Source: an uncultured Lachnospiraceae bacterium (GTDB lineage: Bacteria; Bacillota; Clostridia; Lachnospirales; Lachnospiraceae). From it: DNA of 36,977 nt. Positions 7,867 through 25,724 of the stretch are shown here, one piece after another. The notes beneath the pieces are model-generated. The model made no database searches. It had not been told where the DNA came from and saw only the letters and a program-made list of their open reading frames with translations. Position numbers and translations under genes: made by a program. Within the stretch, counting starts at the first letter, position 1. Every line of letters begins with the position of its first letter. Location: assembly GCA_946618155.1 (NCBI GenBank), contig CAMOKZ010000002.1:1-36977 (forward strand), written 5' to 3'.

Positions 7867-8042
7867 GTGCAACATTCCTTTATTTATGCGGGTTTTCGCA
7901 TGTTTTATCAACAATTTGTCGACAAAATGTGGATAAAATTGTTAATAATCCCGGCCGGGAATAGTGGTCGGGAATAAAAACATTGCAGAATGAAGTTGTT
8001 TGTTTTATTATTATTGTAGGGAAATTATGTGAAGGAGCGACT
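7867..8042. other. oriC, upstream part: DnaA boxes next to dnaA
   Basis: The AT-rich space before dnaA holds TTATCAACA (7905-7913, one mismatch to TTATCCACA) and TGTGGATAA (7928-7936, a perfect box on the minus strand). They face each other around the palindrome TTTGTCGACAAA (7915-7926). A weaker box-like TGTTAATAA lies at 7940-7948. Genes diverge from this point, minus to the left and plus to the right, as expected at a replication origin. The boxes may serve both initiation and dnaA autoregulation. Confidence 0.8.
7983..8011 (+). promoter_or_regulatory. probable dnaA promoter
   Basis: TTGCAG (7983-7988) and TATTAT (8006-8011) are spaced by 17 bp, placing the start of transcription near 8018, about 25 nt before the dnaA ATG. 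The promoter lies 47 bp downstream of the perfect DnaA box, so DnaA binding could modulate it. Confidence 0.6.
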
Positions 8043-9428
8043 ATGGACACCTTAGAAATGATCCGGGATAAATGGGATGAGATTCTGCTTACTGTAAAGG
8101 AAGAGCATGATCTTTCCGATATCTCGTACAAGACCTGGCTTCGGCCGCTGACGGTCTACAGTGTCAGTGATACCAAAATCACTATTCTGGTTCCGTCCGA
8201 GCAGATGGCCGTGGATTATATCAACAAAAAGTATATGTTTCCGCTGAAGGTTGCCATCGCGGAGATCATGAAAACGGAATATGACATTGAGTTCATCCTG
8301 CCCGAGGAAGCCAAGAGCAGGGAGGATGATTCTGCCCAGAAAAGCGGTTCGAGCCGCAGCAATGTCGTCCGCTCCGCCCTGGAGAGGGCTAATCTCAACC
8401 CGAGATATACCTTTGAGACCTTCGTCGTCGGCAGCAACAACAAGTTTGCCCACGCCTGCGCCCTGGCTGTCGCGGAGTCCCCGGCCAGGATGTACAACCC
8501 TCTTTTTATTTACGGCGGTCCCGGACTGGGCAAGACGCATCTGATGCACTCGATCGCGCACTTTATCCTGGAACAGGATCCCTACAAGAAGGTCATCTAT
8601 GTGACCAGTGAGCAGTTCACGAATGAACTGATCGACGCTATCCGTCACGGAAACATGGTCTCCAACAATACCGCCATCAGTTCCTTCCGCGAAAAGTACA
8701 GAAATGTGGATGTTCTCCTCATCGACGATATCCAGTTTATTATAGGAAAGGATGCGACACAGGAGGAGTTTTTCCACACTTTCAACGAACTGCACAATAA
8801 CAATAAGCAGATCATTATCTCCAGTGATAAGCCCCCCAAGGAGATCGATACCCTGGAGGAGCGTTTCCGCTCCAGGTTCGAGAGCGGCATCCTCGCGGAT
8901 ATCTCTTCTCCGGACTATGAGACGAGGGTCGCCATCCTGCGCAAGAAGGAGGAACTGGACGGCTACAACATCAGCGCGGAAGTCATCGACTACATTGCTT
9001 CCAATATAAAGTCCAACATCCGTGAGCTGGAGGGCGCCTTCAACAAGCTGATCGCCCTGAGCCGGCTGGAGCACAAGGAGATCACGCTGGAGCTGGCCGA
9101 GCTTGCCCTTCGGGACATTATCTCCCCCGATGAGTCAAGGCCCATCACGCCGCAGGTCATCATCGATACGGTCGCCGAGCACTTCGGCATCACCTCCGCG
9201 GATATCTGCAGCAACAAGCGCAGCAGCGAGATCGTTATCCCCAGGCAGATCGTGATGTATCTGTGCCGCCATCTGCTGGACATCCCGCTGAAATCCATCG
9301 GGACCTACATCGGCAAACGCGATCACTCCACGGTGATCTACGGTGTAAAAAAGATTGAAACAGACCTGCAGACGTCGGAAACTCTGCGTACGGCTGTGGA
9401 TATCATCAGGAAAAAACTGAATCCGTGA
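8043..9428 (+). CDS. dnaA: chromosomal replication initiator protein DnaA
   Basis: DnaA binds oriC boxes as an ATP-bound filament and melts the DNA unwinding element. The 461-residue protein has domain I (1-80, WDEILLTVKEE, SYKTWLRPL), a short polar linker, and the AAA+ domain. That domain shows Walker A GGPGLGKT (158-165), Walker B LLIDDIQF and sensor I IISSDKPP. Domain IV contains the box-binding helix-turn-helix, ending KSIGTYIGKRDHSTVIYG. The ATG at 8043 was chosen because GAAGGAG lies 5 nt upstream. An in-frame TTG 60 bp earlier overlaps the promoter -35 element. Confidence 0.98.
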   Translation: MDTLEMIRDKWDEILLTVKEEHDLSDISYKTWLRPLTVYSVSDTKITILVPSEQMAVDYINKKYMFPLKVAIAEIMKTEYDIEFILPEEAKSREDDSAQKSGSSRSNVVRSALERANLNPRYTFETFVVGSNNKFAHACALAVAESPARMYNPLFIYGGPGLGKTHLMHSIAHFILEQDPYKKVIYVTSEQFTNELIDAIRHGNMVSNNTAISSFREKYRNVDVLLIDDIQFIIGKDATQEEFFHTFNELHNNNKQIIISSDKPPKEIDTLEERFRSRFESGILADISSPDYETRVAILRKKEELDGYNISAEVIDYIASNIKSNIRELEGAFNKLIALSRLEHKEITLELAELALRDIISPDESRPITPQVIIDTVAEHFGITSADICSNKRSSEIVIPRQIVMYLCRHLLDIPLKSIGTYIGKRDHSTVIYGVKKIETDLQTSETLRTAVDIIRKKLNP

Positions 9429-9610
9429 AATTCGCCCTCAACTTTATCCACTGCTTCAGGCGGATCCTCCCCCGGCGGCAAACATGCTTCCGGACGGGAT
9501 CTTTCCTTTGCCTGTGCGGCGTCGGAGGGTTTTTCACATCTTAACAGCCCCTATTATGACGATTACTGATTATTTTATTTCTTTATTGTTTTGAAAGGAC
9601 CCGCTGCGGT
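9429..9610. other. oriC, downstream part: DnaA box and AT-rich tract between dnaA and dnaN
   Basis: This 182-bp gap holds TTATCCACT (9444-9452, one mismatch to the DnaA consensus). Near its end is a strongly AT-rich, T-rich stretch (about 9561-9594, five G/C in 34). In Bacillus the unwinding element lies in the same place, between dnaA and dnaN, so this is a plausible DNA unwinding element. No convincing dnaN promoter or dnaA terminator was found here. Confidence 0.55.
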
Positions 9611-10711
9611 ATGAAAATCATCTGTTCAAAAAGTGAACTGCTGAAGAAGATCAGTATTGTAATCAAAGCTGTACCGGCCAAGACCACCATGCCTGTTCTG
9701 GAGTGCATCCTCATCCGGGCTGAAGGCGGTGAGATCAGGTTTACGGCTAACGATATGGAACTCGGTATTGAAACGGTCGTGGAAGGCGTTATCCTGGAGG
9801 TCGGTCAGGCTGCCCTGGAGGCAAAGCTGTTCTCCGATATCGTGCGCAAGCTTCCCGAAGCTGATGTCTCGATCGAGGCGGATGCGGCCGGCAAGGCTGT
9901 GATCAGCTGTGAGAAGGCGATCTTCCGGATCACCGGCAGGGACGCGGACGAATTCTCCGCCATCCCCGTTGTGGAAAAAGAGCATCCTGTTACGGTATCG
10001 CAGTTCTCCCTGCGCGAAGCGATCCAGCAGACGATCTTTTCCATTGCGCCCAACGACACCAACAAAATGATGGCCGGCGAGCTCTTTGAGATCGAAGGAG
10101 ACAGGTGGAAGATCGTTTCCCTGGACGGTCACCGCATCTCCATCCGCCAGATCACCCTGCGCGAATCCTACGATCCGGTGAAGGTCATCGTCCCGGGCAA
10201 GACCCTGGGCGAGATCGCGAAGATCCTCACGGGCGACGCGCAGGACGACGTGTACATGTATTTCACGAAGAACCACGTCATGTTCGAGTTCGACAAGACG
10301 ACGGTGGTCTCCCGCCTGATCGAGGGCAACTATTTCCGCATCGACCAGATGCTGACGACGGATTACCTGACCAAGGTGATGATCAGCAAGAGAGAACTGC
10401 TCGACTGTATCGACAGGGCGACGCTCCTGGTCAAGGAGAGCGACAAAAAGCCCATCATCATGGACATCAAGGAAGACAGCATGGAGCTGAAGATCGATTC
10501 CCAGATCGGTTCCATGGATGAAGAGATCGCAATCGAAAAAGAAGGCCGCGACATGATGATCGGCTTCAATCCGCGCTACCTGATCGACGCGCTGCGCGTC
10601 ATCGACGATGAGACCGTAGGCCTCTACTTCGTCAACACCAAGGCGCCGTGCTTCATCCGCGACGAGCAGCTGTCGTATATCTATCTGATCCTGCCCGTAA
10701 ACTTTGTATAA
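9611..10711 (+). CDS. dnaN: DNA polymerase III subunit beta (sliding clamp)
   Basis: The beta clamp is a ring-shaped dimer that tethers DNA polymerase III and other enzymes to DNA. The 366-residue protein has the three-domain clamp layout. Family motifs visible are MKIICSKSELLKKISIV at the start, TMPVLECILIRAEGGEIRFTANDMELGIE, and the C-terminal YIYLILPVNFV, which ends in the usual LP(V/M)R-like position. AAAGGA lies 13 nt before the ATG, a rather long spacer. It follows dnaA across the AT-rich gap. Confidence 0.97.
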   Translation: MKIICSKSELLKKISIVIKAVPAKTTMPVLECILIRAEGGEIRFTANDMELGIETVVEGVILEVGQAALEAKLFSDIVRKLPEADVSIEADAAGKAVISCEKAIFRITGRDADEFSAIPVVEKEHPVTVSQFSLREAIQQTIFSIAPNDTNKMMAGELFEIEGDRWKIVSLDGHRISIRQITLRESYDPVKVIVPGKTLGEIAKILTGDAQDDVYMYFTKNHVMFEFDKTTVVSRLIEGNYFRIDQMLTTDYLTKVMISKRELLDCIDRATLLVKESDKKPIIMDIKEDSMELKIDSQIGSMDEEIAIEKEGRDMMIGFNPRYLIDALRVIDDETVGLYFVNTKAPCFIRDEQLSYIYLILPVNFV

Positions 10712-10759
10712 AGGCGCCCGGTACAGGATTATCAATTTTTGTTGAAAAGAAGGAATAAT

Positions 10760-10975
10760 ATGTCTCAGATTTTTATCAGGGATGAGTTTATCAAGCTCGG
10801 CCAGCTGCTTAAGCTTGCCGGCCTTTGCGATACCGGCGCGGACGCCAAAGAGGTCATTCTGGAGGGTCTTGTCCAGGTGAACGGGGAGACCGCCCTGCAG
10901 AGGGGCAAAAAGGTCGTCCCCGGCGATACGGTCACCTTTGACGGGCAGACGGTCACGGTGGAAAAGAGACAGTAA
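10760..10975 (+). CDS. yaaA: S4-domain RNA-binding protein YaaA (RlbA)
   Basis: This 71-residue protein is a single S4-like RNA-binding fold: FIKLGQLLKLAGLCDTGADAK, then VQVNGE and RGKKVVPGDTV. It is the small protein found between dnaN and recF in Firmicutes; in Bacillus it has been linked to ribosome assembly. The ATG at 10760 is preferred because AAGGA lies just before it. Upstream in-frame TTG codons would place the ribosome-binding site inside the gene. It ends 9 bp before recF. Confidence 0.9.
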   Translation: MSQIFIRDEFIKLGQLLKLAGLCDTGADAKEVILEGLVQVNGETALQRGKKVVPGDTVTFDGQTVTVEKRQ

Positions 10976-10984
10976 AGCGCTGGT

Positions 10985-12067
10985 ATGAGAATCGATTCGG
11001 TCAGACTGGATAATTTCCGCAATTATGAGACCCTGGAACTTCATCCCGACCCGGGGATCAATCTGTTTTACGGCGATAACGCGCAGGGGAAGACGAATAT
11101 CCTCGAGGCCGTCTATGTGTGCGGCACGACGCGTTCCCACCGGGGCGGGAAGGATAAAGAGATGATCCGGTTCGGATGTGAGGAATCCCACATCCGGATG
11201 GAAGTGACAAAAAAGGAGATTCCCTGGCGCATCGATATGCACCTGAAAAAGAGCAGGGCTAAGGGAATTGCGGTGAACGGCGCCCCCATCCGGCGGGCGG
11301 GGGAGCTGCTGGGCATCTGCAATTTTGTTTTTTTCTCTCCGGAGGATCTGGGCATCATCAAGAACGGCCCCGCCCAGCGGCGCCGGTTCATGGACATGGA
11401 GCTGTGCCAGCTCGACGCCCTCTATGTGCGGGATCTTTCCGCCTACAGCAGGGTCCTCATGCAGAGGGGATCGCTGCTGCGCGACCTGCCCTTCCATCCG
11501 GAACTGGAGGATACCATCGGCGTCTGGGACCTGCAGCTTGAGCAGTACGGGACCAGGCTGATCCGCGCGAGGGAACGGTTCGTGGAAGAACTCAACGCAC
11601 TGACCGGTCCCATCCACGAGCGCATCTCCGGCGGCAGAGAGTCTCTGACCATCATTTACGAGAAAAATACAGAGCCGGATAATTTTGCTGCCCAGATCAG
11701 GGAAAACGCGAAGCGGGACAGGAAGCTCAAGCTTACCCATACCGGACCGCACCGCGATGATCTGGGACTCTTCATCGGCGGCGAGGACATCCGCCGTTTC
11801 GGTTCCCAGGGGCAGCAGAGGACGGCAGCCCTTTCGCTCAAGCTCGCGGAGATCGAGCTGGTCAGGAAACGGAGCGGGGAAGGGCCTGTGCTCCTGCTTG
11901 ACGACGTGCTCTCGGAACTTGACCGGGCACGGCAGCGGGATCTTTTGGACAGCATCGGCGACATACAGACTTTGATCACAGGTACGGGCACGGACGCTTT
12001 TCTCGAGAGCGGCTTCCACATCGACCGCCTGTACCAGGTGAAAGCGGGAAAGCTTGCACAGATCTGA
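10985..12067 (+). CDS. recF: DNA replication and repair protein RecF
   Basis: RecF is an SMC-like ATPase that, with RecO and RecR, loads RecA at single-strand gaps. The 360-residue protein shows Walker A GDNAQGKT (30-37), the TRSHR segment, and the signature FGSQGQQRTAALSLKLAEIEL. Walker B is LLLDDVLSELD. It begins 9 bp after yaaA with no strong Shine-Dalgarno, so translation is probably coupled, and it ends 24 bp before the preferred gyrB start. Confidence 0.97.
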   Translation: MRIDSVRLDNFRNYETLELHPDPGINLFYGDNAQGKTNILEAVYVCGTTRSHRGGKDKEMIRFGCEESHIRMEVTKKEIPWRIDMHLKKSRAKGIAVNGAPIRRAGELLGICNFVFFSPEDLGIIKNGPAQRRRFMDMELCQLDALYVRDLSAYSRVLMQRGSLLRDLPFHPELEDTIGVWDLQLEQYGTRLIRARERFVEELNALTGPIHERISGGRESLTIIYEKNTEPDNFAAQIRENAKRDRKLKLTHTGPHRDDLGLFIGGEDIRRFGSQGQQRTAALSLKLAEIELVRKRSGEGPVLLLDDVLSELDRARQRDLLDSIGDIQTLITGTGTDAFLESGFHIDRLYQVKAGKLAQI

Positions 12068-14008
<1,941 letters not shown>

Positions 14009-14037
14009 AATCTATCAGAACATGCGAGGACAGACTT

Positions 14038-16602
14038 TTGGAAGATACGATTTTTGATCAGATTCAGGAAGTAGATCTGCAAAAGACCATGGAGGAGTCC
14101 TACATTGATTACGCGATGAGCGTAATTGCCTCCAGGGCCCTGCCGGACGCGAGGGACGGTCTTAAGCCCGTGCAGCGCAGAGTCCTGTACTCCATGATCG
14201 AACTGAATAACGGTCCCGACAAGCCGCACCGCAAATGCGCGCGTATCGTCGGCGATACGATGGGTAAATACCATCCCCACGGGGACAGCTCGATCTACGG
14301 GGCGCTGGTCAACATGGCGCAGCCCTGGTCGACGCGCTACCCGCTCGTGGACGGTCACGGCAATTTCGGTTCCGTGGACGGCGACGGCGCGGCTGCCATG
14401 CGTTACACGGAGGCGCGCCTGAGCAGGATCTCCATGGAGATGCTCGCGGACATCGGCAAGGATACCGTGGACTTTGTCCCGAACTTTGATGAGACCGAAA
14501 AGGAACCGGTGGTCCTGCCCTCCCGTTTCCCCAACCTTCTGGTGAACGGGACGACGGGCATCGCGGTGGGTATGGCGACGAACATCCCGCCGCACAATCT
14601 GCGGGAGGTCATCGCGGCCTTAAACCGCATTATCGAGGATAAGATCGAGGACAGGGAGCCCACCTCCCTGGAGGAGATCATGACGATCATCAAGGGGCCG
14701 GATTTCCCGACCGGCGCGATGATCATGGGCAGAAGGGGCATCGAGGAGGCCTACCGCACCGGACGCGGAAAGATCCGGGTGCGCGCCGTCACGGATATCG
14801 AGACCCTGCCCAACGGAAAGAGCAAGATCGTGGTGACGGAGCTGCCGTACCTGGTCAACAAGGCCCGCCTGATCGAGAAGATGGCGGAGCTGGTCAGGGA
14901 CCGCAGGATAGAGGGCATCACGGGAATCACGGACGAGTCCAGCCGCGAGGGGATGCGGATCAGCATCGACGTGCGGCGCGACGCCAACGCGAACGTGATC
15001 CTGAACCAGCTTTTCCGGCATACCCAGCTGCAGGATACCTTCGGCGTCATCATGCTGGCCCTCGACGGGAACCGGCCGAAGGTGATGAATCTCCTGGAGA
15101 TGCTGAACATCTACCTGCGGCACCAGGAGGACGTCGTCACCAGACGGACGAAGTACGACCTGAACCGCGCGCAGGAACGCGCGCATATCCTGGAAGGCCT
15201 GCTGAAGGCCCTCGATTTTATCGATGAAGTGATCGCCATCATCCGCGGCAGCCGGACGACGCCGGAAGCCAAGGAAGGGCTGATCGCCCGCTTCGAGCTC
15301 TCCGACGTCCAGGCCCAGGCGATCGTGGACATGCGTCTGCGCACCCTGACCGGTCTGGAAAGAGAGAAGCTGGAGAACGAGTACAAGGAGCTGATGGCAA
15401 AGATCAGAGAGCTGCAGGCCATCCTGGGCGATGAAAAGCTGCTGCTCGGCGTCATCCGCGACGAGCTGACCATCGTCAGCGAGAAGTACGGGGACGAGAG
15501 AAGGACCCAGTTCGGGCATGATGTCTTCGATTTTACCACCGAGGAGCTCATCCCGAAGGAGACCGTCGTGATCACGCGGACGCGCCTGGGCTACATCAAG
15601 CGGATGTCTGAGGACACCTTCCACAGCCAGGGCCGCGGCGGCAAGGGCGTGAAGGGACTCCAGACGCTGGAGGATGACTACATCGAGGACATCCTCATGA
15701 CCGGCACCCACCACTACCTGATGTTCTTTACGAACCTGGGCAGGGTATACCGGCTCAAGGCCTACGAGATCCCGGAGGCGGGCAGGACGGCGAGGGGCGT
15801 TGCCCTGATCAACCTGCTGCAGCTGATGCCGGACGAGAAGATCTCCGCGGTCATTCCGGTGCGGCGGTTTGAGGAAGGCAGATACATGTTTATGGTCACC
15901 CGCATGGGGATCATCAAAAAGACGCCGCTGATGCAGTACGCGAACGTGCGCAAAAACGGCCTTGCGGCGATCAGCCTGCGGGACGGCGACGAGCTGGTCG
16001 GCGTGCGCGTGGTCCACGGGGACAGCCATGTGTTCCTTGTCTCCCGCTTCGGCCAGTGCATCCGCTTTGACCTGACCGAGGTGCGCAGCATCGGCCGCTC
16101 CTCCATGGGCGTGACGGGCATGCGCCTGGCGAAAGGCGATGAGGTCGTCTCCCTGCAGACGGATTACGACGGCGACCATCTGCTCGTGGTATCGGAAAAG
16201 GGCATGGGCAAGCTGGTGCCGATCGCGTCCTTTGACCCGCATCACCGCGGCGGCAAGGGCATCCGGTGCTATAACGTGACAGAGCGCTCGGGGAAGGTAT
16301 TTACCTCGATGATTCTGTATCCGGACAATGAGATCATGCTGATCAACAGCTCCGGCACGGTCATCCGGCTCCTGTGCGAGGAGATCTCCATCCAGGGACG
16401 GACGAGCACGGGCGTGCGCCTGATGAACCTGAAGGAAGGCGAGAGCATTGCCGGCCTGACCAGAGTCCCGGAGGAGCATTCCGTCGAGACCACGACGGAT
16501 ACCGAGGAAGAGGATCCGGAGGAATACCTGGAAGAAGAGCAGGATGTCTACGGGGATGAGGACACGCCCGAGGATCCTGAGGACGGAGAAGACGACGAGT
16601 AA
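14038..16602 (+). CDS. gyrA: DNA gyrase subunit A
   Basis: GyrA carries the DNA-cleaving tyrosine and the DNA-wrapping C-terminal domain of gyrase. The 854-residue protein starts at TTG 14038, seven nt after AGGA. No ATG is available nearby. The active-site Tyr lies in [10 protein letters not shown], and the GyrA box QGRGGKG marks the wrapping domain. The quinolone region reads [12 protein letters not shown]. Ser84 matches E. coli Ser83, but Gly88 replaces the usual Asp/Glu87. The last 40 residues are extremely acidic, a known feature of GyrA tails that tunes wrapping. No clear terminator follows. Confidence 0.98.
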
Positions 16603-16714: not shown

Positions 16715-18559
16715 GTGAGAATGAAAGCAAAAGACAATACGCTCCTTTACGTGATTATTTTTGTGCTCCTGTTCGTGATCGGGGTCATGAGCTTTTTCCT
16801 GATGCGGGCCTATCGGAGCCGCGATCTTAAGCGGAGCGCGGCCGGGGAGGCGGCCACTGTCAGCGAACAGGACGCCAGTCTGCACGCCGGGGACGGCCCG
16901 GAGAGCTTCGGGACGGAATCGGTCTTTGCCGGTGAGGAGACCGGGATGACCGAGGACCTTACCGAGGCGGCGGAGGAATCGGTGTTCGGCGAAGGGGAAG
17001 AGGCGATGACCGAAGCCCTTACCGAACAGGCGGCTCCCGAGACGGAGACCGAGCCGGTGAAGAACGGCTTTAAGGTCTGCCTGGATCCCGGACATCAGGG
17101 ATCGGACATCGACATGAGCGAGCCGGAACCGATCGGACCGGGCGCGGAGGAGACGAAGGCGAAGGCCACCACCGGGACCCAGGGGAATTACACCGGCGTT
17201 CCCGAATACCGGCTGAACCTGGATATCGCCATCGAAGTGCGCGACCTGCTGGAAGCGCGCGGCTACGAAGTGGTGATGACCAGGACCATCCACGAGGCGG
17301 CGATCAGCAACAGCGAAAGAGCGCAGCTGGCTGCGGCAGAGGGCTGCGATATCTCGGTGCGCATCCACGCGAACAGCTCGGAGGATACGTCGATCAGCGG
17401 CGCCCTTGCCATGTGCGTGACGCCCGAAAACCCCTACGCCCCGCAGATCTACGAGGAGAGCCGCAGGCTGTCCGAGACGGTGCTGGGCGCCTACTGCGCA
17501 CAGACGGGCATGAACAACCTGGGCATCCAGGAGACGGACGGGATGACGGGGCTCAACTGGAGCACCATCCCGGTGACCATTCTGGAGATGGGCTTTATGA
17601 GCAATGAGAGCGACGATACCAGGATGCAGGAGGAAAGCTTCCGGGAGAAGATGGTCCTCGGCATCGCGGACGGCATCGACGCCTATTTCGGCCTGACCGG
17701 CGAGACGGCGGGCGAAGAGGAAGCCGGCACGGAAGGCGCCGGACAGGAAGAGGTCCCTGAGGACGAAGGGCCCGCGGGCGAAGCCGCCAGCCAGGTCTTT
17801 GCGGGCAGGGAGGCGATGGGCGAGCGCTGGAGCCTCTGCGTCATCGACCTTGCCGGAGATAAGACCTACCAGCACGGGGCGAACCTGAAGATGCAGTCGG
17901 CCAGCGTGATCAAGTGCTTCATCATGGGCGCGGTCTATGACCGGATCTGCTACCCCGCCTCCGAGGAGACCGCGATCACCTATCCGGAGTCCTACGAAGG
18001 AGAGCTGCGCTCCCTTCTCGAGCAGATGATCTCGGTCAGCGACAACGCCGCGGCGAACCGCCTGATCGAAATTCTGGGCAAGGATGATTTTGCCGCCGGC
18101 GCAGAGATCGTCAATCAGTTCTGCGTTGAGCACGGCTACACCGGGAGCAGCGTGGGCAGACGGTTCCTGGAGGAAAATCCCTCCGGCGACAATTATACCT
18201 GCGCGGCGGACTGCGCAAAGATCCTTGCGGATATCTACCGGGGCGAACTGGTGAGCCCCGAGGCTTCGGAAAAAATGCTGGGCCTGCTGAAAATGCAGAC
18301 CAACCTCTCCAAGATCCCGTCCGGCCTGCCGGAGGGGACGCAGACGGCCAACAAGACCGGCGAGATGCCCGAGGGCTACGGCCTCGGCTGCATCGAGAAC
18401 GACATGGCGATCGTCTACGGACCGGAGGGGGACTACGCGATCGCGGTGCTCTCCAATGAGCTCGCGGGCAGAAATGACGAAGCAGTCTCCGCCATCCGCC
18501 GGGTCTCCACCATCGTGTGGAACTGGTTCGGCGGCGTAACAGAGGAGGCCGCGGCGTAA
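16715..18559 (+). CDS. membrane-anchored N-acetylmuramoyl-L-alanine amidase fused to a serine beta-lactamase-like domain
   Basis: The 614-residue protein has an N-terminal membrane anchor (about 10-30) and an acidic Glu/Thr-rich linker (41-115). Next is an Amidase_3 domain (about 118-328) with zinc ligands His127 (LDPGHQG), Glu164 and His218 (RIHAN), and catalytic Glu291 (ILEMGF). After a second Glu/Gly-rich linker (330-368) comes a class A beta-lactamase/PBP-type domain with SVIK (397-400), SDN (442-444) and KTG (547-549). The amidase half should cut between MurNAc and L-Ala outside the cell. The second half may be a DD-peptidase, a beta-lactamase or a binding module, because no clear omega-loop Glu can be assigned. 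The start is GTG 16715 (AAGGA 5 nt upstream) or ATG 16721. Confidence 0.9.
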   Translation: MRMKAKDNTLLYVIIFVLLFVIGVMSFFLMRAYRSRDLKRSAAGEAATVSEQDASLHAGDGPESFGTESVFAGEETGMTEDLTEAAEESVFGEGEEAMTEALTEQAAPETETEPVKNGFKVCLDPGHQGSDIDMSEPEPIGPGAEETKAKATTGTQGNYTGVPEYRLNLDIAIEVRDLLEARGYEVVMTRTIHEAAISNSERAQLAAAEGCDISVRIHANSSEDTSISGALAMCVTPENPYAPQIYEESRRLSETVLGAYCAQTGMNNLGIQETDGMTGLNWSTIPVTILEMGFMSNESDDTRMQEESFREKMVLGIADGIDAYFGLTGETAGEEEAGTEGAGQEEVPEDEGPAGEAASQVFAGREAMGERWSLCVIDLAGDKTYQHGANLKMQSASVIKCFIMGAVYDRICYPASEETAITYPESYEGELRSLLEQMISVSDNAAANRLIEILGKDDFAAGAEIVNQFCVEHGYTGSSVGRRFLEENPSGDNYTCAADCAKILADIYRGELVSPEASEKMLGLLKMQTNLSKIPSGLPEGTQTANKTGEMPEGYGLGCIENDMAIVYGPEGDYAIAVLSNELAGRNDEAVSAIRRVSTIVWNWFGGVTEEAAA

Positions 18560-18609: not shown

Positions 18610-18631
18610 TACAGAGGGAGTGAACAGATAC

Positions 18632-19969
18632 ATGGGAGTGCGCACATCTGCCGCCATCGCGGCGGCAAAGATCATGAGCGCCGCCTGCAGGCTGATCGGA
18701 AAGCAGGGCGTGACGTACGCCGGCAAGCTGGCCATGCGGATCGATCCCGGCATCCTGAAAAAGCTTTCGGGACAGGTGGAAAAGAAGATCCTCGTGGTGT
18801 GCGGGACGAACGGAAAGACAACGACGAACAATCTGCTCTGCGCCGCCCTGGAGGGTGAGGGGAACCGCGTGGTGTGCAACCGCACGGGCTCCAACATGCT
18901 GATGGGCGTGGCGGCCGCCTTTGTGCTGGCGGCTGACCTGCGCGGCAGGCTGCGCGCCGACTATGCCTGCATCGAGATCGACGAGGCGTCGGCGGTGCGT
19001 GTGTTCCCGCATATGAAACCGGATCTGATGATCCTGACCAACCTGTTCCGGGATCAGCTCGACCGCTACGGCGAGATCGACCTGACCATGGAAAAGCTTT
19101 CCGACGCGATCAAGCTCGTTCCCGACCTGGAGATCGCGGTGAACGCGGACGATCCGCTGTGCACCTGGCTTGCGCAGGAGAGCGGCAGGAAGACGGTCAC
19201 CTTCGGCATCAGCCGGCAGGTCTACACTGAGCAGTCTTCGCGGGAGATCCGGGAGGGCCAGTTCTGCAAATGCTGCGGGACCGCGCTCGAATACAGCTTT
19301 TACCATTACAGCCAGATGGGCGACTACCGCTGCCCGAAGTGCGGGTTCGCGCGTCCCCCCATCCGGTATGACGCCGCGGAGGTCTCGCTGTCGGACGGCC
19401 TTGCCTTTACGGTGGACGGCCGGCGGATCAGCGTGGATTACCGGGGATTTTACAACATCTACAACATCCTCGCTGCCTATGCGGGCGCGACGGAGGCGGG
19501 GGAAGCCCTTCCCCATCTGGACGGTGTCCTCAAAGGGTACGATCCGGCCTTCGGCCGCAACGAGCTGTTTTCCATCGGCGGCGCCAGGGTACTGCTGAAC
19601 CTGGCCAAGAATCCGGCGGGATTTAACCAGAATATTTCTTCCGTCATGACGGATACATCGCCCAAAGACCTGATCATCGTGATCAACGACAATGCCCAGG
19701 ACGGCACCGATGTTTCCTGGCTGTGGGACGTGGACTTCGACCGCCTCGCGGATGAGTCGGTCCGCTCGGTCACGGTCAGCGGCATCCGCGGACGGGACAT
19801 GCAGCTGCGGCTCAAGTATGTGGATATCCCCTCGACGCTGGAGGAGAGCGTGGAGGAGGCCATCCGCAAACGCCTCGCGGACGGATGCGGCAATCTCTAC
19901 GTGCTGGTCAACTATACGGCGCTGTACCACACGCATCAGATCCTGAAGGAGATGGAGAAGCGAAAGTGA
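18632..19969 (+). CDS. murT: lipid II isoglutaminyl synthase, glutamine-dependent, subunit MurT
   Basis: MurT is the Mur-ligase-like subunit that, with the glutaminase GatD, amidates the alpha-carboxyl of D-Glu in lipid II to D-isoglutamine, using ATP. The 445-residue protein has the P-loop GTNGKTTT (58-65) and the Mur middle domain (EIDEAS, TNLFRDQLDRYGE). A Cys4 zinc ribbon uses C212, C215, C234 and C237. The C-terminal DUF1727 domain includes NDNAQDGTDVSWLWDVDF, where a catalytic Asp is expected. The ATG at 18632 is preferred, since GAGGGAG lies 11 nt upstream and an earlier in-frame GTG overlaps that site. Its stop overlaps the gatD start. Confidence 0.95.
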   Translation: MGVRTSAAIAAAKIMSAACRLIGKQGVTYAGKLAMRIDPGILKKLSGQVEKKILVVCGTNGKTTTNNLLCAALEGEGNRVVCNRTGSNMLMGVAAAFVLAADLRGRLRADYACIEIDEASAVRVFPHMKPDLMILTNLFRDQLDRYGEIDLTMEKLSDAIKLVPDLEIAVNADDPLCTWLAQESGRKTVTFGISRQVYTEQSSREIREGQFCKCCGTALEYSFYHYSQMGDYRCPKCGFARPPIRYDAAEVSLSDGLAFTVDGRRISVDYRGFYNIYNILAAYAGATEAGEALPHLDGVLKGYDPAFGRNELFSIGGARVLLNLAKNPAGFNQNISSVMTDTSPKDLIIVINDNAQDGTDVSWLWDVDFDRLADESVRSVTVSGIRGRDMQLRLKYVDIPSTLEESVEEAIRKRLADGCGNLYVLVNYTALYHTHQILKEMEKRK

Positions 19970-20697
19970 AAAAGGGACTGACCATCGGGCATCTTTATCC
20001 CGATCTGCTTAATCTGTACGGCGACAGGGGCAACATCCAGTGCCTGAGAAAGCGCCTTGAATGGCGCGGCTATGAGGCGGATGTCCTGGAATTTACGCTG
20101 GATGACAAGATCGACTTCAACCGGCTCGACCTTGTCCTGCTGGGCGGCGGCTCGGACCGGGAGCAGATGATCGTCTGCAAAAAGCTGCGGGATATCCGGA
20201 AGGATTTTTCCGCCTTTGTGGAGGACGGCGGCGCTGTGCTGGCCGTCTGCGGCGGCTATCAGCTGCTGGGCCACTACTACGACACCCAGGAGGGACGGAT
20301 CGAGGGGCTCTCCCTCGTGGACCTCTACACGGAGCAGGGCAGCCCGAGGCTGATCTCCAACGAGGTGATCATCGGACCGGATTTCTCAATGCCGATCGTG
20401 GGGTTTGAGAACCACGGCGGCAGGACCTTCATCGGGGAGAACCGGCCGCTGGGACAGGTAAAGTTCGGTTTCGGCAACAACGGACAGGACGGACAGGAGG
20501 GCGTGCTCTACCGCAACGTGGTGGGCACCTACCTGCACGGGCCGCTCCTGCCGAAAAATCCGCACGTGTGCGACTATCTTCTCTCCAGAGCCCTGGAGAG
20601 AAAGTACGGGGAAGCTTCCCTTGAACCTCTGGACGATACCCAGGAGGAGGAGGCGAACCGCAGCATCGTAAAACGCTTTGCGGGAGGAAACGCATGA
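19966..20697 (+). CDS. gatD: lipid II isoglutaminyl synthase, glutaminase subunit GatD
   Basis: GatD is the class I glutamine amidotransferase that feeds ammonia to MurT for lipid II amidation. The 243-residue protein has the nucleophile elbow AVCGGYQ with Cys95 and the catalytic His191 in GTYLHGP, matching the CobB/CobQ-like glutaminase family. The GTG start at 19966 overlaps the murT stop (GTGA), with GGAG 8 nt upstream, so the two subunits are translationally coupled. The 3' end overlaps the next gene by ATGA, linking amidation to carboxypeptidase expression. Confidence 0.94.
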   Translation: MKKGLTIGHLYPDLLNLYGDRGNIQCLRKRLEWRGYEADVLEFTLDDKIDFNRLDLVLLGGGSDREQMIVCKKLRDIRKDFSAFVEDGGAVLAVCGGYQLLGHYYDTQEGRIEGLSLVDLYTEQGSPRLISNEVIIGPDFSMPIVGFENHGGRTFIGENRPLGQVKFGFGNNGQDGQEGVLYRNVVGTYLHGPLLPKNPHVCDYLLSRALERKYGEASLEPLDDTQEEEANRSIVKRFAGGNA

Positions 20698-22412
20698 AAA
20701 AGAAAGTGCTGTATCTGCTGACCCTCGCCCTGCTCGCGGCGGTGCCCGCTTTGCAGGCATACGCCGAGGAAGAGTATTACGAAGAAGAGTACGAGGAGGA
20801 CGGGGAAGAGGAGGAGGAGACGGAGTATATTCCGGAATACCTCTACGATCCCATCCAGTCCAACGAGATCGAGGGATGGCCCCAGGGCCCCGCGGTGCGG
20901 GCCGCATCCGCCCTTGTGATGGATCTTGATACCGGCGCGCAGCTCTACGCGAAGGGCATCTACGACAAGCGCTATCCGGCCAGCATCACCAAGATCATGA
21001 CCGGCATGATCATCGTGGAAAACTGCGACCTCGATGATGAGATCACCTTCTCCAACCACGTCTATGAGCTTGAGGAGAACGCGAGCAACGTCGCCCTTGA
21101 AGAAGGGGAGACGATGACCATCGGCGACGCGGTCTACGCCCTGATGCTGGAGTCCGCCAACGACGCGGGCAACGGCCTGGCGGAGTACTACTCCGGCAGC
21201 AACAGCAGCTTTGCCGATGTGATGAACGCGAAGGCGGCGGAGCTGGGCTGCGTGAATACGCACTTTACGAACCCCCACGGCCTGCACAATGACGACCATT
21301 ACACCTGCGCCTACGATATGGCGCTGATCGCGCGGGCGGCCTGGCAGATCCCGAAGATGCGGGAGATCCTGCAGACGACCCTCTACCACTGCCCGGAGAC
21401 GAACAAGGTGGAAGAGCGCTACTTCGTCATGCACCACAAGATGATCCAGGAGGAGAGCGACTACTACCGGGACTGGTGCAGGGGCGGCAAGACGGGTTTC
21501 ACCTCGGACGCCTGGGCGACGCTGGTCACCTACGGGGAAAAGGACGGACAGAACCTGGTCTGCGTGGTGATGCGCGAGCTGAACATGGACTGGTGCTACG
21601 AGGAAACGATCCAGCTGATGAACTACGGCTTTGACGAGTTCGAGAACATCAGCCTCGGCTACGATGCTTCGGGAAAAAGCTTCTACGGCCTGATGGGCCT
21701 GGACTACCTGGGCACCGGAAAGAATCTTTCCCATGTGTCCTGGCTGGAGCAGCCGGTCATCTCTTCGACGCAGGCCGGGACGGTAACGGTCCCCAACGGC
21801 TGGTCGGGACAGGAGCTTTCCACCGAGGGATCCCTCTCGGAGGGACTTGAGGGCACGCTCACCTACACCCGCGGCGACCAGGTGCTCGGCACCTCCTCCA
21901 TGCGCTTTACCCCGGTCAATTTCGCGGTGAGCCTGCCCTACCAGCGGGAGCTGGACATGGAGAAGATCCTCGCCTCCTCGGAGACGGTGAGGAAATCCCG
22001 CGAGGTGCAGGAGGTCGCGGATGCGGCCCTGGAGAATATCCGGACCGCGGTGGACAAAAATGCAGCGCGGATCTCCGGGTTCATCGAGGAGAACCGCCTG
22101 GCCGTGCTGATCGCCGGCGGCGGACTGCTGCTCCTGGTCCTTGCCCTGATCTTTATCCTGCTGGCCCGGTGCTCGACCGACGCCCGGCTGCAGAAAAAGA
22201 AGAGGCAGGAGGAGAGAGCGAGACTGCGCCGCGAGGAGGAGATCGACCGGCAGACCACCGAGGAGATCGAGCAGGAGCTGAGGGCGGCCATGGAGGAAGA
22301 GGCGAAGAAACGCGCCGAAGAGGAAGCCCGCCGCAGGGCGCAGGAAGAGGAAGAGGCACAGCTTCGCGAGACCGAGCAGATCATCGAGGAACTCTCGGGC
22401 AAAAAAAAGTAA
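20694..22412 (+). CDS. D-alanyl-D-alanine carboxypeptidase (PBP5/DacF type), type I membrane protein
   Basis: This penicillin-binding protein should remove the terminal D-Ala from peptidoglycan stem peptides outside the membrane. The 572-residue protein has a signal peptide (1-24, ending AYA) and a very acidic segment (25-46). The S11 peptidase domain shows SITK (97-100), SAN (154-156) and KTG (266-268). A beta-rich PBP5-like C-terminal domain follows. A transmembrane helix (about 469-491) precedes an 80-residue cytoplasmic tail of alternating Glu and Arg/Lys, likely a coiled coil. Most relatives end in an amphipathic helix, so the true TM plus long tail is notable. The ATG overlaps the gatD stop. 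Confidence 0.93.
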   Translation: MKKKVLYLLTLALLAAVPALQAYAEEEYYEEEYEEDGEEEEETEYIPEYLYDPIQSNEIEGWPQGPAVRAASALVMDLDTGAQLYAKGIYDKRYPASITKIMTGMIIVENCDLDDEITFSNHVYELEENASNVALEEGETMTIGDAVYALMLESANDAGNGLAEYYSGSNSSFADVMNAKAAELGCVNTHFTNPHGLHNDDHYTCAYDMALIARAAWQIPKMREILQTTLYHCPETNKVEERYFVMHHKMIQEESDYYRDWCRGGKTGFTSDAWATLVTYGEKDGQNLVCVVMRELNMDWCYEETIQLMNYGFDEFENISLGYDASGKSFYGLMGLDYLGTGKNLSHVSWLEQPVISSTQAGTVTVPNGWSGQELSTEGSLSEGLEGTLTYTRGDQVLGTSSMRFTPVNFAVSLPYQRELDMEKILASSETVRKSREVQEVADAALENIRTAVDKNAARISGFIEENRLAVLIAGGGLLLLVLALIFILLARCSTDARLQKKKRQEERARLRREEEIDRQTTEEIEQELRAAMEEEAKKRAEEEARRRAQEEEEAQLRETEQIIEELSGKKK

Positions 22413-24362: not shown

Positions 24363-24510
24363 CTCTTATTCAGAGTGGCGGAGGTACATAGGACCGGTGA
24401 AACCACGGCAACCCCAGCATGCTGGAAGGTGCCAACCTGAGCGAGTGATCTCGAACAATAAGGGGATTTGACCGACCAGGCCCCCTCATTTTCGAATGAG
24501 GGGTTTTTTG
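24363..24510 (+). ncRNA. SAM-I (S-box) riboswitch controlling metK
   Basis: The leader shows the S-box layout. P1 is formed by CTTATT (24365-24370) and AATAAG (24457-24462). The core GAGTGGCGGAGG, GAAACCACGGCAACC, AAGGTGCCAACCTGAG and GAACAATAAG elements follow in order, with a P3 stem CCAGCATGCTGG. SAM binding should stabilise P1 and allow the terminator at 24482-24509. Without SAM, AATAAGGGG (24457-24465) can pair with CCCCTCATT (24482-24490) as an antiterminator. This makes metK transcription fall when its product is plentiful. Confidence 0.95.
24482..24509 (+). terminator. riboswitch-controlled intrinsic terminator
   Basis: A perfect 9-bp stem (CCCCTCATT, 24482-24490; AATGAGGGG, 24495-24503) is closed by a stable TTCG tetraloop and followed by six T (24504-24509). 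It is the expression platform of the SAM riboswitch. Confidence 0.95.
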
Positions 24511-24536: not shown

Positions 24537-25724
24537 ATGGCAGAAAAAGTATTGTTTACCTCAGAATCCGTTACCGAGGGGCATCCGGATAAGGTCTGCG
24601 ACCAGATCTCCGACGCGGTACTGGACGCGCTGGTCGCACAGGACCCGATGAGCCGCGTGGCCTGCGAGACGGCCTGCACCACGGGCATGGTCCTGCTGAT
24701 GGGCGAGATCACCTCCACGGCCCAGGTGGATTACCAGAAGATCGTGCGGGACACGGTGCGCGAGATCGGGTACACGAAGAGCGAGTACGGCTTTGACGCG
24801 GACACCTGCGCCGTCCTCACCGCCCTTGACAGACAGTCCGGCGATATCGCGATGGGCGTTGACAAGGCGCTGGAGGCGAAGAGCGGCGAGATGAGCGACG
24901 ACGAGATCGAAGCGATCGGCGCCGGCGACCAGGGCATGATGTTCGGCTTCGCCTGCGACGAGACCGACGACTATATGCCCTATCCGATCTGGCTGGCCCA
25001 CAAGCTGTCCCTCCGCCTGACGAAGGTGAGAAAGGACGGCACCATCCCGTACCTGCGTCCCGACGGAAAGACCCAGGTCTCCGTGGAATACGTGGACGGG
25101 CGTCCCGCCCGCCTCGACGCGGTGGTCCTCTCCACCCAGCACGACGCTGACGTGACCCAGGAGCAGATCCACGAGGATATCCGCAGGCACGTGTTCGACG
25201 CGGTGCTTCCGGAGAACATGACGGACGCGGACACGAAGTATTTCGTGAACCCGACGGGCCGCTTCGTCATCGGCGGACCCCACGGCGACAGCGGACTGAC
25301 CGGCAGAAAGATCATCGTCGACACCTACGGCGGATACGCCAGACACGGCGGCGGCGCCTTCTCCGGCAAGGACTGCACGAAGGTGGACCGCAGCGCGGCC
25401 TACGCTGCCCGCTATGCGGCGAAGAACCTGGTGGCCGCCGGTCTTGCCTCCCGCTGCGAGATCCAGCTCTCCTACGCGATCGGCGTGGCGAGACCGACCT
25501 CTGTGATGGTCAACACCTTCGGCACCGGCAAGCTCTCCGATGAGAAGCTCACGGACATCGTCCGCGACACCTTCGACCTTCGCCCGGCCGGCATCATCCG
25601 CATGCTGGACCTTCGCCGTCCGATCTACAAGCAGACGGCCTCCTACGGCCACTTCGGCAGAAACGATCTGGACCTGCCCTGGGAGCGTCTGGACAAGGCG
25701 GACGCGCTGCGCGCGTATCTTTGA
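24537..25724 (+). CDS. metK: S-adenosylmethionine synthetase
   Basis: MetK makes SAM from methionine and ATP in the cytosol. The 395-residue protein has all family signatures: the N-terminal [13 protein letters not shown] (His for ATP), [12 protein letters not shown] in the substrate-binding part, and the C-terminal-half [22 protein letters not shown]. Length is typical. AAAGGAAG precedes the ATG at 24537. Expression is controlled by the SAM-I riboswitch directly upstream, and the gene is a single transcription unit with its own terminator. Confidence 0.99.

Follow-up and report, generated by a model that had tools for sequence, protein, structure and literature searches.

What a peptidoglycan amidase gains from carrying a serine hydrolase of the class A beta-lactamase fold on the same chain, and whether the pair acts on the stem peptide that MurT-GatD modifies, is the question raised by a gene of an uncultured Lachnospiraceae bacterium (GCA_946618155.1, contig CAMOKZ010000002.1). 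The window, by which we mean the whole 36,977-nucleotide stretch of DNA that was analysed, holds this fusion gene directly upstream of murT and gatD. On balance, the chances being a little better than even, we consider the product to be a bifunctional wall hydrolase in which an amidase and a PBP-A-like DD-carboxypeptidase/endopeptidase serve one stem peptide, with amidated peptidoglycan as the target.

The fusion matches two Pfam families far beyond chance, Amidase_3 (PF01520; 122 bits against a cut-off of 27, E 3.5e-35) and Beta-lactamase2 (126.7 bits against a cut-off of 22, E 1.1e-36), and has a single strong hydrophobic segment, at the N-terminus (Table 1). The zinc ligands and catalytic glutamate of the amidase half and all three motifs of the serine half are present, and in an alignment of the 21 fused loci found in Lachnospiraceae, several of which are near-identical MAG pairs, these catalytic residues are invariant. 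The earlier note had read the gene as a zinc amidase with all ligands and a serine hydrolase with intact SVIK, SDN and KTG motifs sharing one anchored chain, and this description is confirmed throughout. The anchors of the fused orthologues differ, being a transmembrane segment, a lipobox or signal-peptide-like; such variety suits an enzyme that needs an outside location and is flexible in the type of tether. In structure searches the closest folds to the amidase half were those of mycobacterial Rv3717/Ami1 (PDB 4M6G, 4LQ6, 7AGO; PMC3852659), which share with it the Amidase_3 fold and an extra N-terminal segment after the first zinc histidine but are single-domain proteins with no serine hydrolase partner. 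The match to the NCBIfam model of Rv3717-type amidases (NF038140) was 74.4 bits against a cut-off of 335, which was not reached and denotes a related fold only. A search of the source genome with PF00144 gave no match, this being the wrong beta-lactamase Pfam for the serine domain. PADLOC found no defence-system match for the fusion, PHROGs matched the amidase half only, as an endolysin, and a plasmid search found no fused copy. In a promoter scan the vicinity of the gene had no sigma-70 site on the forward strand, and counts were at background level.

Table 1. Features of the fusion gene and its neighbours, in window coordinates.
Feature	Position	Strand	Details
gyrA, upstream neighbour of the fusion	14038..16602	+	
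Fused amidase / PBP-A-like serine hydrolase gene (predicted), 612 aa	16721..18559	+	ATG start; alternative GTG start at 16715
N-terminal membrane anchor, residues 8-26	16742..16798	+	mean hydropathy 2.95
Amidase_3 domain, residues 119-320	17075..17680	+	Pfam; zinc ligands H125 (17093), E162 (17204), H216 (17366); catalytic E289 (17585)
Acidic low-confidence interdomain linker, residues 328-344	17702..17752	+	pLDDT <50 over model residues 225-241
PBP-A-like serine hydrolase domain (predicted), residues 372-577	17834..18451	+	Pfam Beta-lactamase2; S395-V-I-K398, S440-D-N442, K545-T-G-E548
Omega-loop equivalent GRRFLEENPSGDNY, residues 479-492	18155..18196	+	G, R, N conserved; class A E166 position without conserved Glu
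murT, lipid II isoglutaminyl synthase ligase subunit	18620..19969	+	same direction as the fusion
gatD, glutaminase subunit	19945..20697	+	
S11 D-Ala-D-Ala carboxypeptidase (DacF/PBP5-type)	20694..22412	+	

The search for the same domain pair in other genomes that the earlier note had called for yielded those 21 fused loci, and with them its reservation of a fusion found nowhere else, or of an assembly error, is excluded: the loci lie in many assemblies, including that of a named, non-MAG strain, Blautia sp. Marseille-P3087, where the fusion (L005) sits on a 3.3-Mb sequence. A tree of 69 serine domains contained one clade of 31 members, comprising 19 fused to the amidase, ten with the amidase in the adjoining gene and two alone, while at least 36 other paralogues had no link to this amidase in the DNA examined. 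Part of this clade was collected with the fused protein as query; among the 15 members recovered solely by searching genomes with a serine-domain profile, seven were fused, six adjacent and two alone. This mixture of fused, adjacent and solitary forms indicates that the link arose or was lost on several occasions and has been retained. The two domains are recurrently joined, physically and with invariant catalytic residues. The open-access literature that was searched held nothing relevant on the pair of amidase and serine domain, nor were its recurrence, the PBP-A-like nature of the serine domain or its dependence on MurT found there, which is weak evidence. Taken singly, both domains are members of known fold families.

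The gene order in the window is dnaA-dnaN-recF-gyrB-gyrA-fusion-murT-gatD-S11 carboxypeptidase-xer. Only 60 bp separate the fusion from murT, and gatD and the S11 gene each overlap the gene before them. MurT carries GTNGKTT and DNAQD, GatD carries CGG and LHGP, and the S11 carboxypeptidase carries SITK, SAN and KTG; murT and gatD pass their Pfam cut-offs and have MurT and GatD as their best NCBIfam models, yet the equivalog cut-offs of these are not reached. The order from gyrB to xer recurs in close relatives (loci L001, L002/L003, L006 and L014) and, as far as gatD, at L013, which is the same locus on a shorter contig. By their coordinates, many other relatives (for example G027, G152, G121 and G140) have murT directly after gyrA with no fusion between, and many fusions in other relatives sit elsewhere, away from murT. 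It follows that gyrA-murT is the older linkage, which the fusion entered only in the sub-clade of the window, and that the neighbourhood alone is weak evidence. The assertion that the fusion heads a murT-gatD-carboxypeptidase cluster accordingly holds for the window but describes a local arrangement. In one relative (G069, contig C25; loci L048/L082) the slot between gyrA and murT is occupied by a serine domain alone, in a lipoprotein-like protein of 444 aa without an amidase. Outside the Lachnospiraceae, four genomes (G467, G400, G409 and G445) have a serine-domain gene at a distance of 4-15 kb from murT; the neighbours there look generic (RecD helicase, clostripain, GlmS), so this proximity was not used as evidence. 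The origin-type order dnaA-dnaN-recF-gyrB-gyrA spans 7983-16602 of the window, and a SAM riboswitch (24363-24464, forward strand) lies upstream of metK (24537-25724).

In the mechanism that we propose, a membrane-tethered extracytoplasmic chain would hold the two activities close to the membrane, as at sites of division. The N-terminal zinc amidase would cut the bond between MurNAc and L-Ala and release the stem peptide, and the C-terminal serine DD-peptidase would trim D-Ala5 from that same peptide or open its 4-3 crosslink, so that together they may trim, uncross-link and release stem peptides when the wall is turned over or cells separate. The serine domain has probably evolved for stem peptides whose D-Glu is amidated to D-isoglutamine by MurT-GatD. 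Both catalytic activities, the preference for amidated peptides and the cooperation of the two active sites are what we infer here; the two-step wall-remodelling enzyme that had been suggested is supported as the likely reading, and so is the presence of both domains, intact, on a single anchored chain. Rv3717 converts MurNAc-L-Ala-D-isoGln to L-Ala-D-isoGln (PMC3852659), and MurT-GatD amidates the D-Glu of the stem peptide, giving D-isoglutamine (PMC6113224). MurT-GatD, encoded directly downstream of the fusion, acts on the stem peptide in cytoplasmic synthesis, whereas the fusion is predicted to act in extracytoplasmic hydrolysis. Atl of Staphylococcus aureus, an amidase/glucosaminidase, resembles the fusion in that two wall-cutting activities, one of them an amidase, come from one gene (PMC6262408), but its second activity cuts glycan rather than D-Ala peptide bonds and its second domain is unrelated.

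The likeness that would tie the serine domain to D-isoglutamine is that to PBP-A of Thermosynechococcus elongatus (TLL2115; PDB 2J7V). This was the best single-protein sequence match, came second after 4ewf in the profile search, and was among the best folds. The enzyme acts as a DD-carboxypeptidase/endopeptidase and is highly selective for stem peptides that carry an amidated D-Glu (PMC11189452). It shares with the family of the window domain the class A fold, SxxK, SxN and KTG motifs and the lack of a conserved omega-loop glutamate, and the window domain is a probable DD-peptidase. PBP-A enzymes are described as confined to cyanobacteria and are stand-alone proteins, and Glu96 at the entry of the active site is the proposed discriminator of D-iGln (PMC11189452); the window family, in contrast, belongs to Clostridia and Lachnospiraceae and is linked to an amidase, and the Glu96 loop is an insertion relative to its profile; other acidic residues lie close to this place in the window copy. 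Specificity can thus not be read from the residues and, if present, must use others. We take the serine domain as one that may work like PBP-A without classing it as a PBP-A member.

Genome-wide distribution provided a test of the connection to amidation. In a sample of 299 Lachnospiraceae genomes from 298 genera, the serine domain was present in 27 (profile E <1e-40, a threshold picked after the score distribution had been seen) and MurT_C in 62. MurT was found in 26 of the 27 carriers against 36 of the 272 non-carriers (Fisher 2.6e-19), the sole MurT-negative carrier being a 94% complete MAG (G287), while none of the 12 genomes with only a distant serine-domain subfamily was MurT-positive. 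Across the class, MurT occurred in 20 of 22 carriers and 88 of 174 others (p 1.8e-4), and one of the exceptions is a 65% complete genome. The amidase type, present in 279 of the 299 Lachnospiraceae genomes, is so nearly universal as to give no MurT signal in its own right. When independent and dependent two-trait models were fitted on a gyrB tree built from 129 genomes, of which 26 were carriers and 57 MurT-positive, dependent evolution of serine domain and MurT was preferred (LR 29.1, p 7e-6), with domain gain estimated to be about 25 times faster where MurT is present and MurT loss near zero in carriers. This test used a single-gene tree and a sample enriched in positives, and two-trait tests of this kind are known to be over-confident. 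The serine domain depends on MurT genome-wide. Its near-restriction to MurT carriers suggests action on amidated walls, and the co-occurrence lends support to the idea, raised from the neighbourhood, of a substrate shared with MurT-GatD.

The same bifunctional amidase/DD-peptidase might have no special tie to D-Glu amidation, the correlation with MurT being one of shared ancestry or habitat. We regard this as unlikely, though the most serious of the alternatives. It would agree with the age of the gyrA-murT adjacency, which precedes the insertion of the fusion, with the absence of the Glu96 loop from the clostridial family, and with the 36 MurT-positive genomes that lack the serine domain; also, the stricter independent-pairs test (three same, none opposite, six uninformative), which is underpowered, was not significant alone. 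Shared ancestry sits poorly, however, with a distribution that has changed about 12 times on the gyrB tree while nearly all carriers are MurT-positive, and the likelihood-ratio result, the recurrence of the pattern across the class and the absence of MurT from genomes with the distant subfamily speak against it as well. A hydrolase tied to amidated peptidoglycan remains the reading that we prefer. The stricter statement, that clostridial PBP-A-like DD-peptidases hydrolyse only D-Glu-amidated peptidoglycan, are kept only with MurT-GatD and have repeatedly been coupled to an amidase, is put forward tentatively, as falling somewhat short of an even chance.

The serine domain could instead be a genuine beta-lactamase that guards the site of wall remodelling, as its class A fold and motifs would allow. 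The class A model NF033103 aligns with it, at 74.9-78.5 bits, but this is far under the equivalog cut-off of 200. In 27 homologues SxxK, SxN and KTG are invariant, followed by an invariant glutamate after KTG and by G-R...N of the omega loop, while the position of the class A Glu166 is not conserved: the two omega positions vary among fused homologues as E/A/D and E/S/F/G, and some homologues have no omega-loop glutamate at all. The window copy has E484 and E485 in this region, one of which might act like E166. AlphaFold modelled the serine domain alone with confidence (pLDDT 92, pTM 0.91), and a fold search with this model was led by LRA-5, 4ewf and PBP-A, with all class A structures close behind at similar scores. 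The top match, the class A 'precursor' LRA-5 (PDB 8EO5), is a stand-alone metagenomic protein for which the record of a Y69Q/V166E mutant implies V166, and so no omega glutamate, in the wild type; PBP-A lacks this glutamate as well (PMC11189452). Since the omega glutamate is unconserved, the curated class A cut-offs failed and the top structures PBP-A and LRA-5 are without that residue, the domain is probably not a beta-lactamase but a peptide trimmer of the PBP/DD-peptidase type. A beta-lactamase role, which the earlier note had left room for, is not borne out, and the recurrent link to a wall amidase adds to what makes it improbable.

Serine beta-lactamase folds support varied catalysis and sequence does not reveal the substrate, so the domain might act on something else, such as a surface D-amino-acid ester or amide. 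With a DD-peptidase as the closest characterised relative, and with wall hydrolases or wall-binding repeats as the partner domains, we find this very improbable. That the domain is a BlaR-like sensor, whose acylation by a beta-lactam or muropeptide gates the amidase, is scarcely credible: a penicillin-binding fold does share the chain with a hydrolase of the Rv3717 fold, which carries an occluding hairpin (PMC3852659), but the linker is disordered and 21-186 residues long among fused homologues, the AF2 inter-domain orientation is unreliable (pTM 0.58) so that no gating interface is inferred, fused and unfused forms interchange, the two domains being encoded by separate neighbouring genes in 10 of the 31 clade members, and the full catalytic triad is retained, which leaves the gating proposed earlier unsupported.

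If a wall DD-peptidase trimming amidated stem peptides is what the serine domain represents, current annotation calls such an enzyme a class A beta-lactamase or serine hydrolase in common gut bacteria, and the mislabelling could inflate resistance-gene counts. D-Glu amidation would then have a testable role, as a mark that particular hydrolases recognise, and an amidase and a DD-peptidase sharing an anchor would set free stem peptides with D-isoglutamine, a kind that bears on muropeptide signalling in the gut. Should hydrolysis be restricted to amidated peptidoglycan, these enzymes would be amidation-reading hydrolases outside the cyanobacteria, tying a modification of lipid II to selective wall turnover.

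The source genome has four serine-domain copies in total. One of them (L101, contig C6), like L106, has the serine domain joined to cell-wall repeats of the choline-binding/glucan-binding type. Another (L102, contig C44) belongs to a recurring paralogue that lacks the SxxK lysine and KTG and is predicted to be dead; L103, L105, L084/L273, L262, L265 and L266 are further examples, and L260 and L270 probably belong here also. This paralogue occurs in several clostridial families and adjoins an intact copy in all cases but L102, and it is possibly an inactive partner or regulator.
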